NCBI RefSeq assembly: GCF_000016665.1 | Contig: NC_009523.1 | Span: 5,269,501-5,333,500 of the forward strand | Reading direction: 5' to 3' | DNA: 64,000 nucleotides | Source: Roseiflexus sp. RS-1 | Lineage (GTDB): Bacteria > Chloroflexota > Chloroflexia > Chloroflexales > Roseiflexaceae | Shown here: piece by piece, positions 52,576 to 58,919 of the stretch | Layout: every line of letters begins with the position of its first letter | How positions within the stretch are numbered: position 1 is the stretch's first letter | Program-made: the position numbers and the translations under genes | The notes under the pieces: model-generated | Database searches by the model: none | Seen by the model: only the letters and a program-made list of their open reading frames with translations | Told to the model about the DNA's origin: nothing

Positions 52576-55500
52576 ATGCGTCGCGGTATGGTCTGGCTCT
52601 GGCTATCCGGTCTGATCGGCGGTCTGATAATGTTCATTCCCACAACAGGGCAAACGCCGGTTGCGCGTGCAACGGTTCCAAACAATCAAAACTGGATATT
52701 CACGCCAGGAACGTGTGATCCGGCGTTCCAGGGCGCCGTGTTTGCGAACTGGAATCCGGCGACCGGAGCGCCCAACTGCGGCGTTTTCACCTCTGGGGCG
52801 CCATCAGTGAATCAGTTCGATACCGGTCAGGTCTTCCCGCCCAACGTTCTCAGAGATGAAGCGAGTGTCACCGCACCATGCGAAAACGGTCGCATAAGCG
52901 GTCTGTGTTATCGGATGTGGTACGTCGGCACGCGTCCCGGCGAGCCGTATCGCCGGATCGGGTATGCCGTCTCACCGGACGGCGTTTCCTGGTATCGCGT
53001 TCAGGGGACGCATACCGGCGGCAGCGTCTTCGAAGGGTCTGGAACGTCTGGACATTCTTTTGATCAGAACGGCGTGACAACATTTCATGTGATCAAGGAC
53101 GGCGGACAGTATCACATGTGGTACACCGGCGTCAGTAGCGACTGGCGCTGGGTAGGGTTCGGTTACGCAACTTCGACCAACGGCATTACCTGGGTCCGAC
53201 AGAACGGCGGAGCGCCGGTCCTGACGTCGCGTCCTGGTTCGGGTTTGTTCGACGATGATCGCATTATCGGACCGTTTGTGCTGATTGATGAAGCCAGCGC
53301 TATCGCACCGTGCGAAGGCGGGCGCACCAGCGGGCGTTGCTTCCGCATGTGGTATGAAGGGTTCCGTGCGAATAACACCTTCTATGTAGGACACGCGCTT
53401 TCTTCCGATGGGATATCCTGGTCAATCGTCAACGGACCGGCGCCTCTCGGATCAGTGCTGGCTGGAGATCCGAATGGTCCGCTCGGCTTTGCTGCGTTTG
53501 ACTCAAACAATGTCGGTTTGACGGCAGTCATCAAGGATGGCGCTATCTATCGGATGTGGTACCAGGCCAAAAGCTACCAGAATCCACCAGAGCACCCCTT
53601 TGGCGATTGGTTCACCATCGGACATGTCACCTCAGTGGATGGAGTGAACTGGGTGCGCCCCAATCCTAATCTGCTTGCGTTCAGCGGTGATATGGACACG
53701 ATCAGTGTCAATCCCCCTGGAACCAACGACGATGTGTGGGTCGTGCGGCTGTTGAAGGAAGACCTGACCTATCGGATGTGGTATGCCACCGCCGGAACGC
53801 CGAACAGTACGCGCTTCGGTCTGGCTGAGATGACGCAGGGATCGCCGATCACGCCAACCGTGCTGCGCAACGGTGATGAGTTTACGATCACCATGACCAC
53901 GCAACAAACAATCCCGCCCGATGGCAGTGTCTTGATCACCCTGCCGCCAGACGTTGCGCTCGATCAGTTTGCTGCGGTCGAACTGCAAGGTTTTGAACCC
54001 GGCGCTTCGCTCCTCCGTGAACGCGCGGCGGTCACCGATGCGTACAGCGGGTTCGCCGCGCGGGATGCGATCCTGATCCGGTTGCCGAACGGCGCCGTCC
54101 TCGGACCGAAAACAATCCGGTTTAATCTCGGCGCTGGCGCACCCAACCCGTCCACCTTCCTGATCCAGACATTCGACACCCACAAGGTGCTCGAACGCGC
54201 GCGCGTCGTTCCCGGCGATCTCCGGGTGACCCAGAGTGTGGCTTCGGTCGTTGCTGGCGAACCGGCAGTGTACACCGTTACGGTCAGCAACGTGGGTCCG
54301 AATGCGGTCACCGGGGCGGTGCTGAACAGCACATTCCCGGCGCAACTGAGCGGCACGACCTGGACGTGTGTTCCGTCGGGCGGGGCTTCCTGCGCGCCAA
54401 CCAGCGGCAGTGGCAACTGGATCAACAAGACCCTCAATCTGCCGGTTGGGAGCAGCGTCACATTTACCGTCACCGGTGATCTGGTAAGCACGGCAACCGG
54501 CAATCTGGTCAGTACCGTCGGTGTGGCGACTCCTGACGGCATCAATGAACTGACGCCGACCGATAATACGTCCACACTCTCGACGCCGATCAGTGTTCGC
54601 GGCGACCTGGCAATAACGCGAATGAGCAACCCGGCCGTTCCGCAGGCAGGTCAGCCGATCACCTACACGCTGACGGTAACGAACGCCGGACCGAGCACCG
54701 TGGTCGGTGCGACCGTGGTGAACATCTTCCCGATCAGCGTCACGAATGTCATCTGGAATTGCGGCGCGACGTCCGGCTCGGCGTGCCCCTCGTCAGGAAG
54801 CGGAAGCATCAATGCGCCGGTCACGCTTGCGCCGGGCGGGAATGCGGTTTTCACCGCCACCGGCGTGGTGTCGCCAGCGGCGCTGACGATGCCGCCGCAT
54901 TCGGCTATCGTGACAGTGCCGGGGAATGTGACCGATCCTGATCCGGACAACAACGTGTTCACCGACGGTGGCGGCCTGGGGCGACCTGCCGATCTGACGA
55001 TCAGCAAGACGGTGGCGCCAGCGGTTGTGGTTCCCGGACTGCCGGTGACCTATACGATTACGGTGACGAACACCGGCAGCGCAGATGCCGATGGCGCGAC
55101 CGTGCTCGACCTGTTCCCGCCGACGATCAGCGGAGTGGCGTGGACATGCAGCGGCGCGAATGGCGCAACATGCGCGCAGTCAAGCGGCAGCGACAACCTG
55201 ACGCTGAGCCTGCCGTCGTTCCCGGTCGGCGGAGCGGCGACGATCACCATAACAGGCGTCGTGGCGGCAGACGCAACCGGCAACCTGGTGAATACGGCGC
55301 AGGTCTTGCCGCCGGTCGGCGTGGACGACCCGACGTTCGCCAATAATACGTCCACACTCTCGACGCCGATCAGTGTCCGCGGCGACCTGGCAATAACACG
55401 AACGAGCAACCCGGCGGTTCCGCAGGCAGGTCAGCCAATCACCTATACGCTGACGGTAACGAATGCCGGACCGAGCACCGTGGTCGGTGCGACGGTGGTG

Positions 55501-56574
55501 AACATCTTTCCGATCAGCGTCACGAATGTCATCTGGAATTGCGGCGCGACGTCCGGGTCGGCATGCCCCTCGTCGGGAAGCGGAAGCATCAATGCGCCGG
55601 TCACGCTTGCGCCGGGCGGGAATGCGGTTTTCACCGCCACCGGCGTGGTGTCGCCAGCAGCGCTGACGATGCCGCCGCATTCGGCAATCGTGACAGTGCC
55701 GGGGAATGTGACCGATCCTGATCCGGACAACAACGTGTTCACCGACGGTGGCGGCCTGGGGCGACCTGCCGATCTGACGATCAGCAAGACGGTGGCGCCA
55801 GCGGTTGTGGTTCCTGGTCTGCCGGTGACCTATACGATTATGGTGACGAACACCGGCAGCGCAAATGCTGATGGCGCAACCGTGCTCGACCTGTTCCCGC
55901 CGACGATCAGCGGGGTGGTGTGGACATGCAGCGGCGCGAATGGCGCAACATGCGCGCAGTCAAGCGGCAGCGGCAACCTGACGCTGAGCCTGCCGTCGTT
56001 CCCGGTCGGCGGAGCGGCGACGATCACCATAGCAGGCGTCGTGGCGGCAGACGCAACCGGCAACCTGGTGAATACGGCGCAGGTCTTGCCGCCGGTCGGC
56101 GTGGACGACCCGACGTTCGCCAACAACAGCGTCACGATTTCGAGTACGCTTCAACCGCACACCGATCTGGTGGTGACACAGAGTCTCCCTGTGCACGCAT
56201 TTGTAGGACAAACCATAGTGTACACGGTCACGGTACAAAACAACGGTCCGAGTGTTGCTGCCAGCGCGCGGGTGAGCAACACGCCACCGGCGCTCGTGAC
56301 GGTGACCGGTTGGGCGTGTGCAGCGTCGAGCGGGTCGTCCTGCGGTGCAGCAAGCGGCAGCGCACCCGTCGATGATATGGTGACGCTGGCGCCGGGCGGA
56401 ACCGTGACCTACACAGTGACCGGGGTTGTCTTCCGGCGGGCAGTAGGGGCGTTGCCCTTCTCCAGTACGGTTGCCGCACCGACAGGCGCGGAAGACCCCG
56501 TGCCATCGAACAACCGGGCGGAGGGTTCAACACAGGCGTTGTATGTGGTGAACCTGCCGGTCATTGCGCGATGA
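52576..56574 (+). CDS. Large secreted protein: five-bladed propeller plus six DUF11 domains
   Basis: A 1332-residue protein with a signal peptide (about 1-33). Residues ~35-430 hold five blades, each marked by a Y[RH]MWY-type motif (CYRMWYVG, YHMWYTG, CFRMWYEG, IYRMWYQA, TYRMWYAT). This is a GH32/GH43-like five-bladed propeller pattern, but without a clear catalytic triad. A linker beta-domain (about 435-545) follows. Six DUF11 domains begin near 548, 677, 806, 937, 1066 and 1197. Domains 2-3 and 4-5 are an almost identical 260-residue duplication. The protein ends VVNLPVIAR, an LP[LV][VI]-type tail. DUF11 domains form stalks or adhesive surface fibres. It is probably a surface adhesin or matrix protein. 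Confidence 0.85.
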   Translation: MRRGMVWLWLSGLIGGLIMFIPTTGQTPVARATVPNNQNWIFTPGTCDPAFQGAVFANWNPATGAPNCGVFTSGAPSVNQFDTGQVFPPNVLRDEASVTAPCENGRISGLCYRMWYVGTRPGEPYRRIGYAVSPDGVSWYRVQGTHTGGSVFEGSGTSGHSFDQNGVTTFHVIKDGGQYHMWYTGVSSDWRWVGFGYATSTNGITWVRQNGGAPVLTSRPGSGLFDDDRIIGPFVLIDEASAIAPCEGGRTSGRCFRMWYEGFRANNTFYVGHALSSDGISWSIVNGPAPLGSVLAGDPNGPLGFAAFDSNNVGLTAVIKDGAIYRMWYQAKSYQNPPEHPFGDWFTIGHVTSVDGVNWVRPNPNLLAFSGDMDTISVNPPGTNDDVWVVRLLKEDLTYRMWYATAGTPNSTRFGLAEMTQGSPITPTVLRNGDEFTITMTTQQTIPPDGSVLITLPPDVALDQFAAVELQGFEPGASLLRERAAVTDAYSGFAARDAILIRLPNGAVLGPKTIRFNLGAGAPNPSTFLIQTFDTHKVLERARVVPGDLRVTQSVASVVAGEPAVYTVTVSNVGPNAVTGAVLNSTFPAQLSGTTWTCVPSGGASCAPTSGSGNWINKTLNLPVGSSVTFTVTGDLVSTATGNLVSTVGVATPDGINELTPTDNTSTLSTPISVRGDLAITRMSNPAVPQAGQPITYTLTVTNAGPSTVVGATVVNIFPISVTNVIWNCGATSGSACPSSGSGSINAPVTLAPGGNAVFTATGVVSPAALTMPPHSAIVTVPGNVTDPDPDNNVFTDGGGLGRPADLTISKTVAPAVVVPGLPVTYTITVTNTGSADADGATVLDLFPPTISGVAWTCSGANGATCAQSSGSDNLTLSLPSFPVGGAATITITGVVAADATGNLVNTAQVLPPVGVDDPTFANNTSTLSTPISVRGDLAITRTSNPAVPQAGQPITYTLTVTNAGPSTVVGATVVNIFPISVTNVIWNCGATSGSACPSSGSGSINAPVTLAPGGNAVFTATGVVSPAALTMPPHSAIVTVPGNVTDPDPDNNVFTDGGGLGRPADLTISKTVAPAVVVPGLPVTYTIMVTNTGSANADGATVLDLFPPTISGVVWTCSGANGATCAQSSGSGNLTLSLPSFPVGGAATITIAGVVAADATGNLVNTAQVLPPVGVDDPTFANNSVTISSTLQPHTDLVVTQSLPVHAFVGQTIVYTVTVQNNGPSVAASARVSNTPPALVTVTGWACAASSGSSCGAASGSAPVDDMVTLAPGGTVTYTVTGVVFRRAVGALPFSSTVAAPTGAEDPVPSNNRAEGSTQALYVVNLPVIAR
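54561..56120 (+). repeat. 780-bp in-frame tandem duplication inside the DUF11 gene
   Basis: Unit 1 is about 54561-55340 and unit 2 about 55341-56120, each coding for two DUF11 domains. Only about half a dozen of roughly 250 amino acids differ (for example MSNPAV/TSNPAV and ITVTN/IMVTN). The high nucleotide identity implies a recent event, or ongoing gene conversion. Confidence 0.9.
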
Positions 56575-56814: not shown

Positions 56815-57921
56815 ATGTCTCGTCGTCGTTCACGTCACTCGCCCGATGCCGGGTCTGCCATCGGCGCTCTTTTCCTGCTCGGATTGATCGGATTTCGTCC
56901 TTTCTGGCAAACCGTAACGAACCTTGCCCTCCCCTGGCAGATCGCTGCTGCGGTGCTGATCCTCTCGGTTGCGTTTGTGATCCTGTGGTTTGTGCGTCTT
57001 TTGATACGTCATGCGCGCCAGCGGAGCCTGGTGCGTAAGGAACTGTACGCGCTCACGCCGACCGAATTTGAAGAACGGGTGCTGCTCTTGTTGAAAGACC
57101 TGGGCTGGAGTCATCTCAGATTGCGCGGCGGCAGTGGAGATCGCGGCGTTGATCTGGAAGGCGAGTTTCAGGGTACACGGTATGTCGTCCAGTGTAAGCG
57201 CTACCATCACAATAAGTCGGTTTCTCCCTCAGCGGTGCGCGATCTCGTCGGAGCGTTGCACATTCAGAAAGCCGACCGCGCATTGCTGGTGACGACAAGT
57301 TCGTTTACGCCGCAGGGGTATGCCGAGGCGCGCGATCAGGCAGTGGAACTGTGGGATGGCGCTATTCTGGAGCAGAAGATAAGCGAAGCTGCCAGGTTGC
57401 GTGAAGACCCGACACGTAGACAGGCGGTGCAACGGCGACGCCTTGCAACATTCATTACACTGGTGGTGATCAACGGGTTAAGCGTTCTGTCAGCATTTGC
57501 GATTGCAGGTCCGCCATCGTCTGCGCCACCAACTATTCGCACAGCGCCGACGCCCTCTCCTGAAAGTATTGCCGGATCACCTCTGGGAAGAACCGCATCT
57601 TCTCTTCCCTTGCCTACCCAGACTCCTTCTTCGGAAGAACCTCAACCGACAGCGCTGCCGACACCGACGGTGGCGCCGACAGAACCCCCCGTCCCGACCA
57701 CAACCGTTTTCAATGGCGGGAATGTGCGCGCTGCGCCGAATATGCGGGGCACGGTGCTCGATCAGGTGCACGCTGGCGAGATTGTCGAACTGCTCGGTCG
57801 TTCGGCGGACGGAAACTGGCTCTATATCCGCAATCCGCGCGGTCAGGTTGGCTGGACGCACCGCACCCTGCTGACTCTCGAAGCAGACATCAGTGAGCGT
57901 CTGGAGGTGGTAGCGCCGTGA
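56815..57921 (+). CDS. Membrane-anchored Mrr-like nuclease with external SH3b domain
   Basis: A 368-residue protein. Two N-terminal TM helices lie at about 13-30 and 40-63, followed by a basic RHARQRSLVRK stretch. A restriction-endonuclease (Mrr_cat) domain covers about 80-190 with EFEERVLLLLKDLGW, GDRGVDLEG (catalytic Asp113) and VVQCKRY (Gln126, Lys128). A basic TRRQAVQRRRL stretch and a third TM at about 211-231 come next, then a Pro/Thr linker and an SH3b domain (about 300-362, NVRAAPNMRGTVLDQV...GNWLYIR..GQVGW). Positive charges put the nuclease in the cytosol and SH3b outside. Mrr-type domains cut foreign or modified DNA, and SH3b domains usually bind cell-wall peptide. It likely stands alone, with no methylase or helicase nearby. 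No strong ribosome site is visible. Confidence 0.8.
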   Translation: MSRRRSRHSPDAGSAIGALFLLGLIGFRPFWQTVTNLALPWQIAAAVLILSVAFVILWFVRLLIRHARQRSLVRKELYALTPTEFEERVLLLLKDLGWSHLRLRGGSGDRGVDLEGEFQGTRYVVQCKRYHHNKSVSPSAVRDLVGALHIQKADRALLVTTSSFTPQGYAEARDQAVELWDGAILEQKISEAARLREDPTRRQAVQRRRLATFITLVVINGLSVLSAFAIAGPPSSAPPTIRTAPTPSPESIAGSPLGRTASSLPLPTQTPSSEEPQPTALPTPTVAPTEPPVPTTTVFNGGNVRAAPNMRGTVLDQVHAGEIVELLGRSADGNWLYIRNPRGQVGWTHRTLLTLEADISERLEVVAP

Positions 57922-58353: not shown

Positions 58354-58580
58354 AAGCCCTCGGCTAGCCAGGGCGAAGCCCGCCTGCGCGGGCTATACCG
58401 GAATAATTATTCAAAGACCATAAGCCCTCGGCTAGCCAGGGCGAAGCCCGCCTGCGCGGGCTGTAGCGGATTATTTACTCAAAGGCCATAAGCCCTCGGC
58501 TAGCCAGGGCGAAGCCCGCCTGCGCGGGCTATACCGGAATAATTATTCAAAGACCATAAGCCCTCGGCTATGCAAGGCGA
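58354..58580. repeat. Tandem 68-base hairpin repeat (three units plus partial)
   Basis: Units begin at 58354, 58422, 58490 and 58558 (partial), exactly 68 bases apart. Each has AAGCCCTCGGCTAGCC, then GCCCGCCTGCGCGGGC (hairpin), then an AT-rich tail. A single relative lies at about 52082-52150. The regular length and identical content argue against CRISPR, because the unit has no variable spacer. Confidence 0.85.
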
Positions 58581-58622
58581 CGCCCGCCGGCGCGGAACGC
58601 GAACCCCAACGGTGACCCTATC

Positions 58623-58882
58623 GACCATCGGCTATCAATTATCGGCTATCGACCATCGGCTATCGGCTATCGGCTATCGGCTATCGGCTATCGACCATCG
58701 GCTATCGGCTATCGATTATCGCCTATCGGCTATCGAATGCAAAACCCGTCTGTGCGTCACGCGAACTCCAACGGCGACCCTATCGACCATCGGCTATCGA
58801 TTATCGGCTATCGATTATCGCCTATCGGCTATCGATTATCGCCTATCGCCTATCGGCTATCGATTATCGCCTATCGGCTATC
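58623..58882. repeat. Heptanucleotide array D: 16 and 14 phased units
   Basis: 58623-58734 is sixteen perfect-phase 7-mers, and 58785-58882 is fourteen. All end in ATC (GGCTATC, GACCATC, GATTATC, GCCTATC, AATTATC). Both blocks share flanks (ACGCGAACyCCAACGGyGACC before and GAATGCAAAACCC after), so the whole unit is duplicated. It sits 37 bases beyond the stop of the minus-strand gene at 58920. Confidence 0.9.
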
Positions 58883-58919
58883 GAATGCAAAACCCGCCTG
58901 CACAGACCAGACCGAATAC

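Follow-up and report, generated by a model that had tools for sequence, protein, structure and literature searches.

What a nuclease of the Mrr type could be doing at the cell membrane, with a further domain carried into the wall space, is the question raised by a gene of Roseiflexus sp. RS-1, whose genome is a single sequence of 5,801,598 bases. The gene lies in the 64,000-nucleotide stretch of DNA analyzed here (the window), and the original prediction made for it was that a cytosolic nuclease tethered to an outward SH3b domain could act near the point where phage or transforming DNA enters. The explanation we consider best, to which we assign a probability of about 0.42, is a membrane-anchored single-chain DNase whose targets would be chosen by location rather than by DNA sequence, as judged from sequence, a structural model and analogy with known systems. 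The features of the gene are listed in Table 1.

Table 1. Features of the gene, with their positions in the window and the evidence for each.
Feature	Position	Strand	Evidence
Whole gene, 368 aa, TM-TM-Mrr-TM-linker-SH3b	56815..57921	+	ORF; same order and similar length in orthologues of 12 genomes (one copy cut by a contig end)
TM helix 1, about aa 13-35	56851..56919	+	Hydropathy; model helix 13-35
TM helix 2, about aa 43-65	56941..57009	+	Hydropathy; model helix 40-79; positive-inside count
Mrr_cat nuclease domain, aa 78-186	57046..57372	+	Pfam PF04471; fold matches
E86, predicted active-site acidic residue	57070..57072	+	Invariant in 15 homologues
D113, predicted metal-binding Asp, motif GGSGDRGVD	57151..57153	+	Invariant in 15 homologues
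Q126-C127-K128, QxK half of the PD-QxK site	57190..57198	+	Invariant in 15 homologues
TM helix 3, about aa 210-231	57442..57507	+	Hydropathy; model helix 199-231
Pro/Thr/Ser-rich linker, aa 232-296, predicted disordered	57508..57702	+	pLDDT <50 over 231-290
Bacterial SH3 (SH3_3) domain, about aa 297-355	57703..57879	+	Pfam PF08239; SH3 fold matches

The reading frame coincides exactly with the one originally delimited, and the domains proposed for it were recovered. The Mrr_cat profile matched with an E-value of 6.7e-25 (87.9 bits against a Pfam gathering cut-off of 21), and the C-terminal SH3b domain was confirmed by an SH3_3 match over aa 301-351 (E 9.7e-11, 42.1 bits against a cut-off of 27). 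Hydrophobic segments at aa 12-30, 46-64 and 213-231, together with the helices of the model, correspond to the two N-terminal TM helices and the third one; TM1 is weak in the window protein (mean Kyte-Doolittle hydropathy 1.55) and stronger in most orthologues (up to 2.56). A basic N-terminus, MSRRRSRH, precedes TM1, the basic stretch RHARQR follows TM2, and RRQAVQRRR precedes TM3. By Pfam, hydropathy and the model, residues 1-77 are made up of the basic tail and the TM helices, and no Pfam match to a winged-helix (Mrr_N) or SRA-like recognition domain was obtained in the window protein at E<=1.

The profile match above the cut-off, combined with an E...D-x12-QxK site, places the nuclease part in the Mrr_cat family. 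The Asp113 and Gln126-x-Lys128 positions originally singled out were invariant amongst the homologues, with E86 as a further acidic residue, and the site is intact. Its spacing, E---D-x(12)-QxK, is the one that Mrr-like sites have been reported to show (PMC4926085), and EcoKMrr and MspJI have been described as PD-QxK enzymes (PMC12707154). An AlphaFold2 model of modest confidence (five input sequences, mean pLDDT 60, pTM 0.37) contained the three helices given in Table 1, an Mrr-like alpha/beta core, a low-confidence linker over 231-290 and SH3-like strands. In comparisons by Foldseek and VIA-align, the modeled nuclease fold matches that of the modification-dependent nucleases AspBHI (Z 11.4) and MspJI (Z 11.3), as well as AF1548 (Z 12.3); most other rows scored lower. 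SH3 domains were matched by the C-terminal part of the model. A single-sequence search found no relatives of solved structure, and a profile search found only AF1548 (E 0.013).

We infer that the window protein would cut DNA. The alternative, a protein that would bind DNA or serve as a structural tether and cut little or not at all, can appeal to the existence of Mrr-fold domains without a catalytic site, including a 4-TM relative in the same genome, and is very unlikely given that the catalytic positions are all strictly invariant in 15 homologues. That relative (L008:1492-2424, genome about 1.21 Mb) is a 4-TM protein with an Mrr-like domain in which QxK is lost (HLRLSV). Several genera of the family have relatives of it, and we read it as a conserved, probably inactive membrane Mrr. 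Separately, at window positions 57196-57243, a two-residue insertion was observed beside the catalytic Lys (HHNKSVSPSA vs TKPVQPSM in a 92% relative), and the nuclease part had a dS of 0.39 vs 0.10-0.19 in the other domains; together, these observations hint at local gene conversion.

The orientation of the protein was predicted from the distribution of charges. Across 15 homologues, the N-terminal segment and the segments that follow TM2 and precede TM3 are for the most part basic, and the loop between TM1 and TM2 carries almost no charge. The basic stretches that had been noted on both membrane boundaries of the nuclease are thus a feature of the homologues, and by the positive-inside rule the N-terminus and the nuclease are predicted to lie inside and the SH3 domain outside. 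A membrane-anchored cytosolic nuclease is predicted from hydropathy, charge bias and the model. The outward placement of the SH3 module is also suggested by its occurrence in other proteins of the same genome. Its nearest relatives there are a 517-aa triple-SH3 membrane protein (54% identity over the best SH3) and a 283-aa protein with a lipobox (LTGCAG), which we read as a lipoprotein, and a more distant match is a 563-aa protein whose C-terminus we read as NlpC/P60. A reversed topology, with the nuclease outside and degrading extracellular DNA for nutrition, is extremely improbable; in its favor, only two of the three TM segments exceed the hydropathy cut-off in some homologues, but the basic stretches to either side of the nuclease, the near-uncharged TM1-TM2 loop and the same SH3 module in a lipoprotein all speak against it.

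No description of a protein with the TM-TM-Mrr-TM-SH3b order was found in a literature search, in agreement with the original prediction, and the domain combination seems undescribed. The window protein is outside SNIPE, Zorya and the classical type IV enzymes; the kind to which it belongs, the membrane-anchored nuclease, is known. Taken as analogies, SNIPE and Zorya are the closest working systems. SNIPE is membrane-bound and cleaves phage DNA during injection, sparing the chromosome by location, and loss of its TM makes it toxic to the host (PMC13190303). As predicted for the window protein, it combines a membrane anchor and a cytosolic nuclease in a single polypeptide; for the window protein, a location-based specificity is proposed here by analogy. 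SNIPE differs in its GIY-YIG fold, its DUF4041, its one N-terminal TM and the lack of a wall-facing domain after the nuclease, and neither GIY-YIG nor DUF4041 gave a Pfam match in the window protein at E<=1.

In Zorya, a wall-binding membrane part is needed for the nuclease-based defence (PMC11890865). The likeness lies in an extracytoplasmic domain (wall-binding in Zorya and putatively so here) combined with a cytosolic nuclease at the membrane, which in ZorD is Mrr-like; the PADLOC model of ZorD (helicase + Mrr-like nuclease) matches the nuclease part of the window protein with an E-value of 6.8e-8. Zorya (the ZorAB motor with ZorC/ZorD, and ZorE in type II) is, in contrast, a multi-protein rotary motor with a Pal-like wall-binding domain and a helicase-nuclease effector, whereas the window system would consist of one protein with no motor, and no ZorA/ZorB match was found among the neighbours of the window gene or related loci. 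A one-protein Zorya counterpart, in which SH3b would sense or mark an envelope breach and position or switch on the attached Mrr nuclease to cut entering DNA, is unlikely.

Three other groups share parts of the architecture. The type IV enzymes of the Mrr/MspJI family have the same Mrr_cat domain, PD-QxK site and fold, but are soluble and carry a winged-helix or SRA-like recognition domain where the window protein has TM helices. Plasmids and other Chloroflexota encode TM-Mrr proteins, annotated as 'restriction endonuclease', with N-terminal TMs directly before the Mrr domain, as here, and the plasmid relatives match the window protein from TM2 through the Mrr domain; no C-terminal TM-linker-SH3 module was found in those examined. 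The COG4741 (YraN-like) nucleases, proposed in a 2005 survey to be a 'membrane-associated guardian against foreign DNA' (PMC1189080), similarly join an N-terminal membrane helix to a predicted cytosolic PD-(D/E)XK nuclease, but belong to another nuclease subfamily, with one TM and no SH3.

In the location-based reading that we prefer, the two N-terminal TM helices would hold a PD-QxK (Mrr-type) nuclease on the cytosolic side of the membrane, and TM3 and the flexible linker would carry SH3b into the wall space, as predicted from sequence and model. SH3b would putatively bind peptidoglycan or another wall component, fixing the protein in place, so positioned that the nuclease may reach DNA at or crossing the membrane (i.e., phage genomes and transforming or conjugating DNA) and would seldom reach the nucleoid. 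The membrane and wall anchor would stand in place of the winged-helix domain of Mrr or the SRA-like domain of MspJI; with no recognition domain, an unrestrained enzyme would threaten the chromosome, and tethering offers a restraint. Both an accessible wall and pressure from phages are plausible in Roseiflexus: the wall of R. castenholzii appears in cryo-ET to be thin and exposed, with no outer membrane (PMC7332563), and viral contigs that match CRISPR spacers of Roseiflexus have been reported (PMC5017753).

Homologues with the same domain order were collected from 12 genomes of two genera. The full order was found in 5/6 Roseiflexus genomes, the sixth of which, without the gene, is 82% complete, and in 7/7 genomes of a second genus (g16), which we take to be Chloroflexus, with two of its genomes presumably C. 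aurantiacus and C. aggregans. The survey covered 400 Chloroflexota genomes, plasmid and phage collections, and one contig scan reaching close relatives only, and a search with the orthologue profile gave no full-length match in any other Chloroflexota genome of this 400-genome sample. Relatives elsewhere in the phylum combine the Mrr domain with one to three TM helices and lack SH3. Amongst 59 Mrr reading frames from the loci collected, the Roseiflexus orthologues being part of that set, a check for SH3 was positive only in the three Roseiflexus orthologues. In a tree of the Mrr core, the Roseiflexus sequences formed one group and those of g16 another, and all Chloroflexales rows of this type fell together (support 84/78). 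Proteins of two sister lineages (L043 and L045) keep TM3 and lack SH3, so that SH3 is dispensable in those lineages; no SH3 remnant was seen downstream of the L043 gene in three forward frames, and in a member of the same family (L044) the SH3_3 match fell short of the threshold (24.2 bits vs 27). Based on these SH3-less relatives and on the tree grouping, the TM-Mrr core is probably older, with the SH3 module joined within Chloroflexales.

The gene looks vertically inherited, near-fixed in the two genera, whose members live in hot springs, and under purifying selection. Comparisons of the window gene with relatives at 60-92% identity gave dN/dS values of about 0.07-0.13 for the nuclease, 0.04-0.08 for SH3 and 0.35-0.6 for the linker, although dS is near saturation in the distant pairs and those ratios are rough. 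The low values at nuclease and SH3 and the high value in the linker suggest that both ends matter and that the linker is a spacer. A mobile or phage origin was rejected: in tblastn searches of phages and plasmids, every match was below 60% identity and none extended over 80% of the protein.

This mode of inheritance bears directly on the main rival, a Chloroflexales housekeeping membrane nuclease. Such an enzyme would act at the membrane, processing or clearing DNA that is the cell's own or has been imported, and SH3b would position it in the wall or septum. Septum-trapped DNA, competence intermediates and recombination structures are the substrates proposed. Housekeeping has a real, if limited, chance of being the correct explanation. 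Its support comes from near-fixed, vertical presence in two genera, low dN/dS, the widespread second membrane Mrr-fold protein (the 4-TM relative without QxK) in the same family, and the contrast with other Mrr_cat genes, which are patchy in g16 (4/6 genomes); such patchy spread is usually the look of a defence gene. Against this, no operon partner from DNA metabolism was found and most Chloroflexota are without the full protein.

The genomic surroundings also provide information on this point. The Roseiflexus gene has a DUF11 repeat protein on one side and a ROK/sugar-transport region on the other. In 6/7 g16 loci, a conserved series of genes runs divergently from it, comprising lspA (in two copies where scanned), an RluA-family (rluD-type) synthase, malate dehydrogenase (mdh), a sensor kinase and rsmA. 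These genus-specific conserved flanks of core genes fit a housekeeping role. In several g16 genomes the gene is also tail to tail with what we read as a Tad pilus cluster, in which TadA-type ATPases, an AAA_31/ParA-like ATPase and also a SAF-domain protein are encoded; this neighbourhood, which would favor housekeeping, is absent in Roseiflexus. No partner gene was common to the Roseiflexus and g16 loci, so the gene looks standalone, as had been proposed. The DUF11 neighbour itself (window 52576-56574) is a surface-type protein of 1332 aa that contains six DUF11 repeats and two long near-identical blocks.

Enrichment of defence genes around the homologues, put forward originally as a check on the defence role, was not observed. 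In a PADLOC scan (E<=1e-10), the neighbours of eight loci (68 proteins) yielded five families with one member each, and nine control loci drawn at random from genomes of the same set (85 proteins) yielded eight families with 1-4 members each; membership of a defence island was rejected for lack of any excess over these random loci. One g16 genome has, at L036:3707-8904, genes for a CHAT protease, an N-acetylmuramoyl amidase, an FtsZ/tubulin-like GTPase and a gasdermin in a row, tail to tail with the Mrr-SH3 gene (PADLOC E-values of 4.6e-108 for CHAT and 5.4e-76 for bacterial gasdermin). The amidase and FtsZ-like members beside gasdermin look unusual. As it occurs at a single locus, this operon was set aside.

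The same operon is amongst the arguments for an envelope-stress-gated suicide nuclease, in which SH3b would sense wall damage (phage lysis, antibiotics), TM3 would pass the signal, and the nuclease, released or re-oligomerised, would cut the cell's own chromosome. E. coli Mrr, which is switched through its oligomeric state, attacks the DNA of its host when pressure stress is applied (PMC12707154), and GTPase conflict systems, with Chloroflexi among the taxa named, have SH3 beyond a C-terminal TM (PMC7159879). We nevertheless regard this explanation as decidedly unlikely, since a long disordered linker is a poor signal transmitter, the sequence of TM3 is poorly conserved and the gasdermin operon adjoins the gene in one genome only.

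Of the three outcomes originally named as counting against the prediction, a missing Mrr site and an outside nuclease are not borne out by the structural model and the predicted topology; the third, homologues that are conserved housekeeping genes, applies by half, in that the gene is vertical and near-fixed, with flanks of core or sugar-transport genes. Most defence genes differ from it both in inheritance, which is vertical and near-fixed here, and in surroundings, which are of the housekeeping kind here, and for these reasons defence near the point of DNA entry is not strongly favored; it is possible, and one of the two leading explanations. The missing excess of defence genes and the vertical, near-fixed inheritance weaken the case for a mobile defence system and are still compatible with a constitutive guard, which such inheritance suggests rather than an exchangeable defence cassette. 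If incoming DNA is cut, the protein would be a minimal constitutive entry guard that uses nothing but position to tell self from non-self, found in phototrophs that branch deeply and are known to be under phage pressure, and the SNIPE/Zorya idea would extend to a wall-tethered Mrr enzyme. If the role is housekeeping, core cell biology would have taken over an Mrr nuclease, a rare event.

The DNA next to the gene, on its downstream side, is repeat-rich, as originally noted, with a dispersed palindromic repeat and a 14/21-bp array, and nothing ties these repeats to the gene. They were ruled out as part of the system since the G+C-rich palindrome, GGCTAGCCAGGGCGAAGCCCGCCTGCGCGGGCT, is dispersed in 265 copies genome-wide at <=3 mismatches. 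It is held in a 68-bp unit repeated 3.6 times at window positions 58354-58595, and positions 58617-58884 consist of the simple 14/21-bp array of CTATCGACTATCGG-like units.
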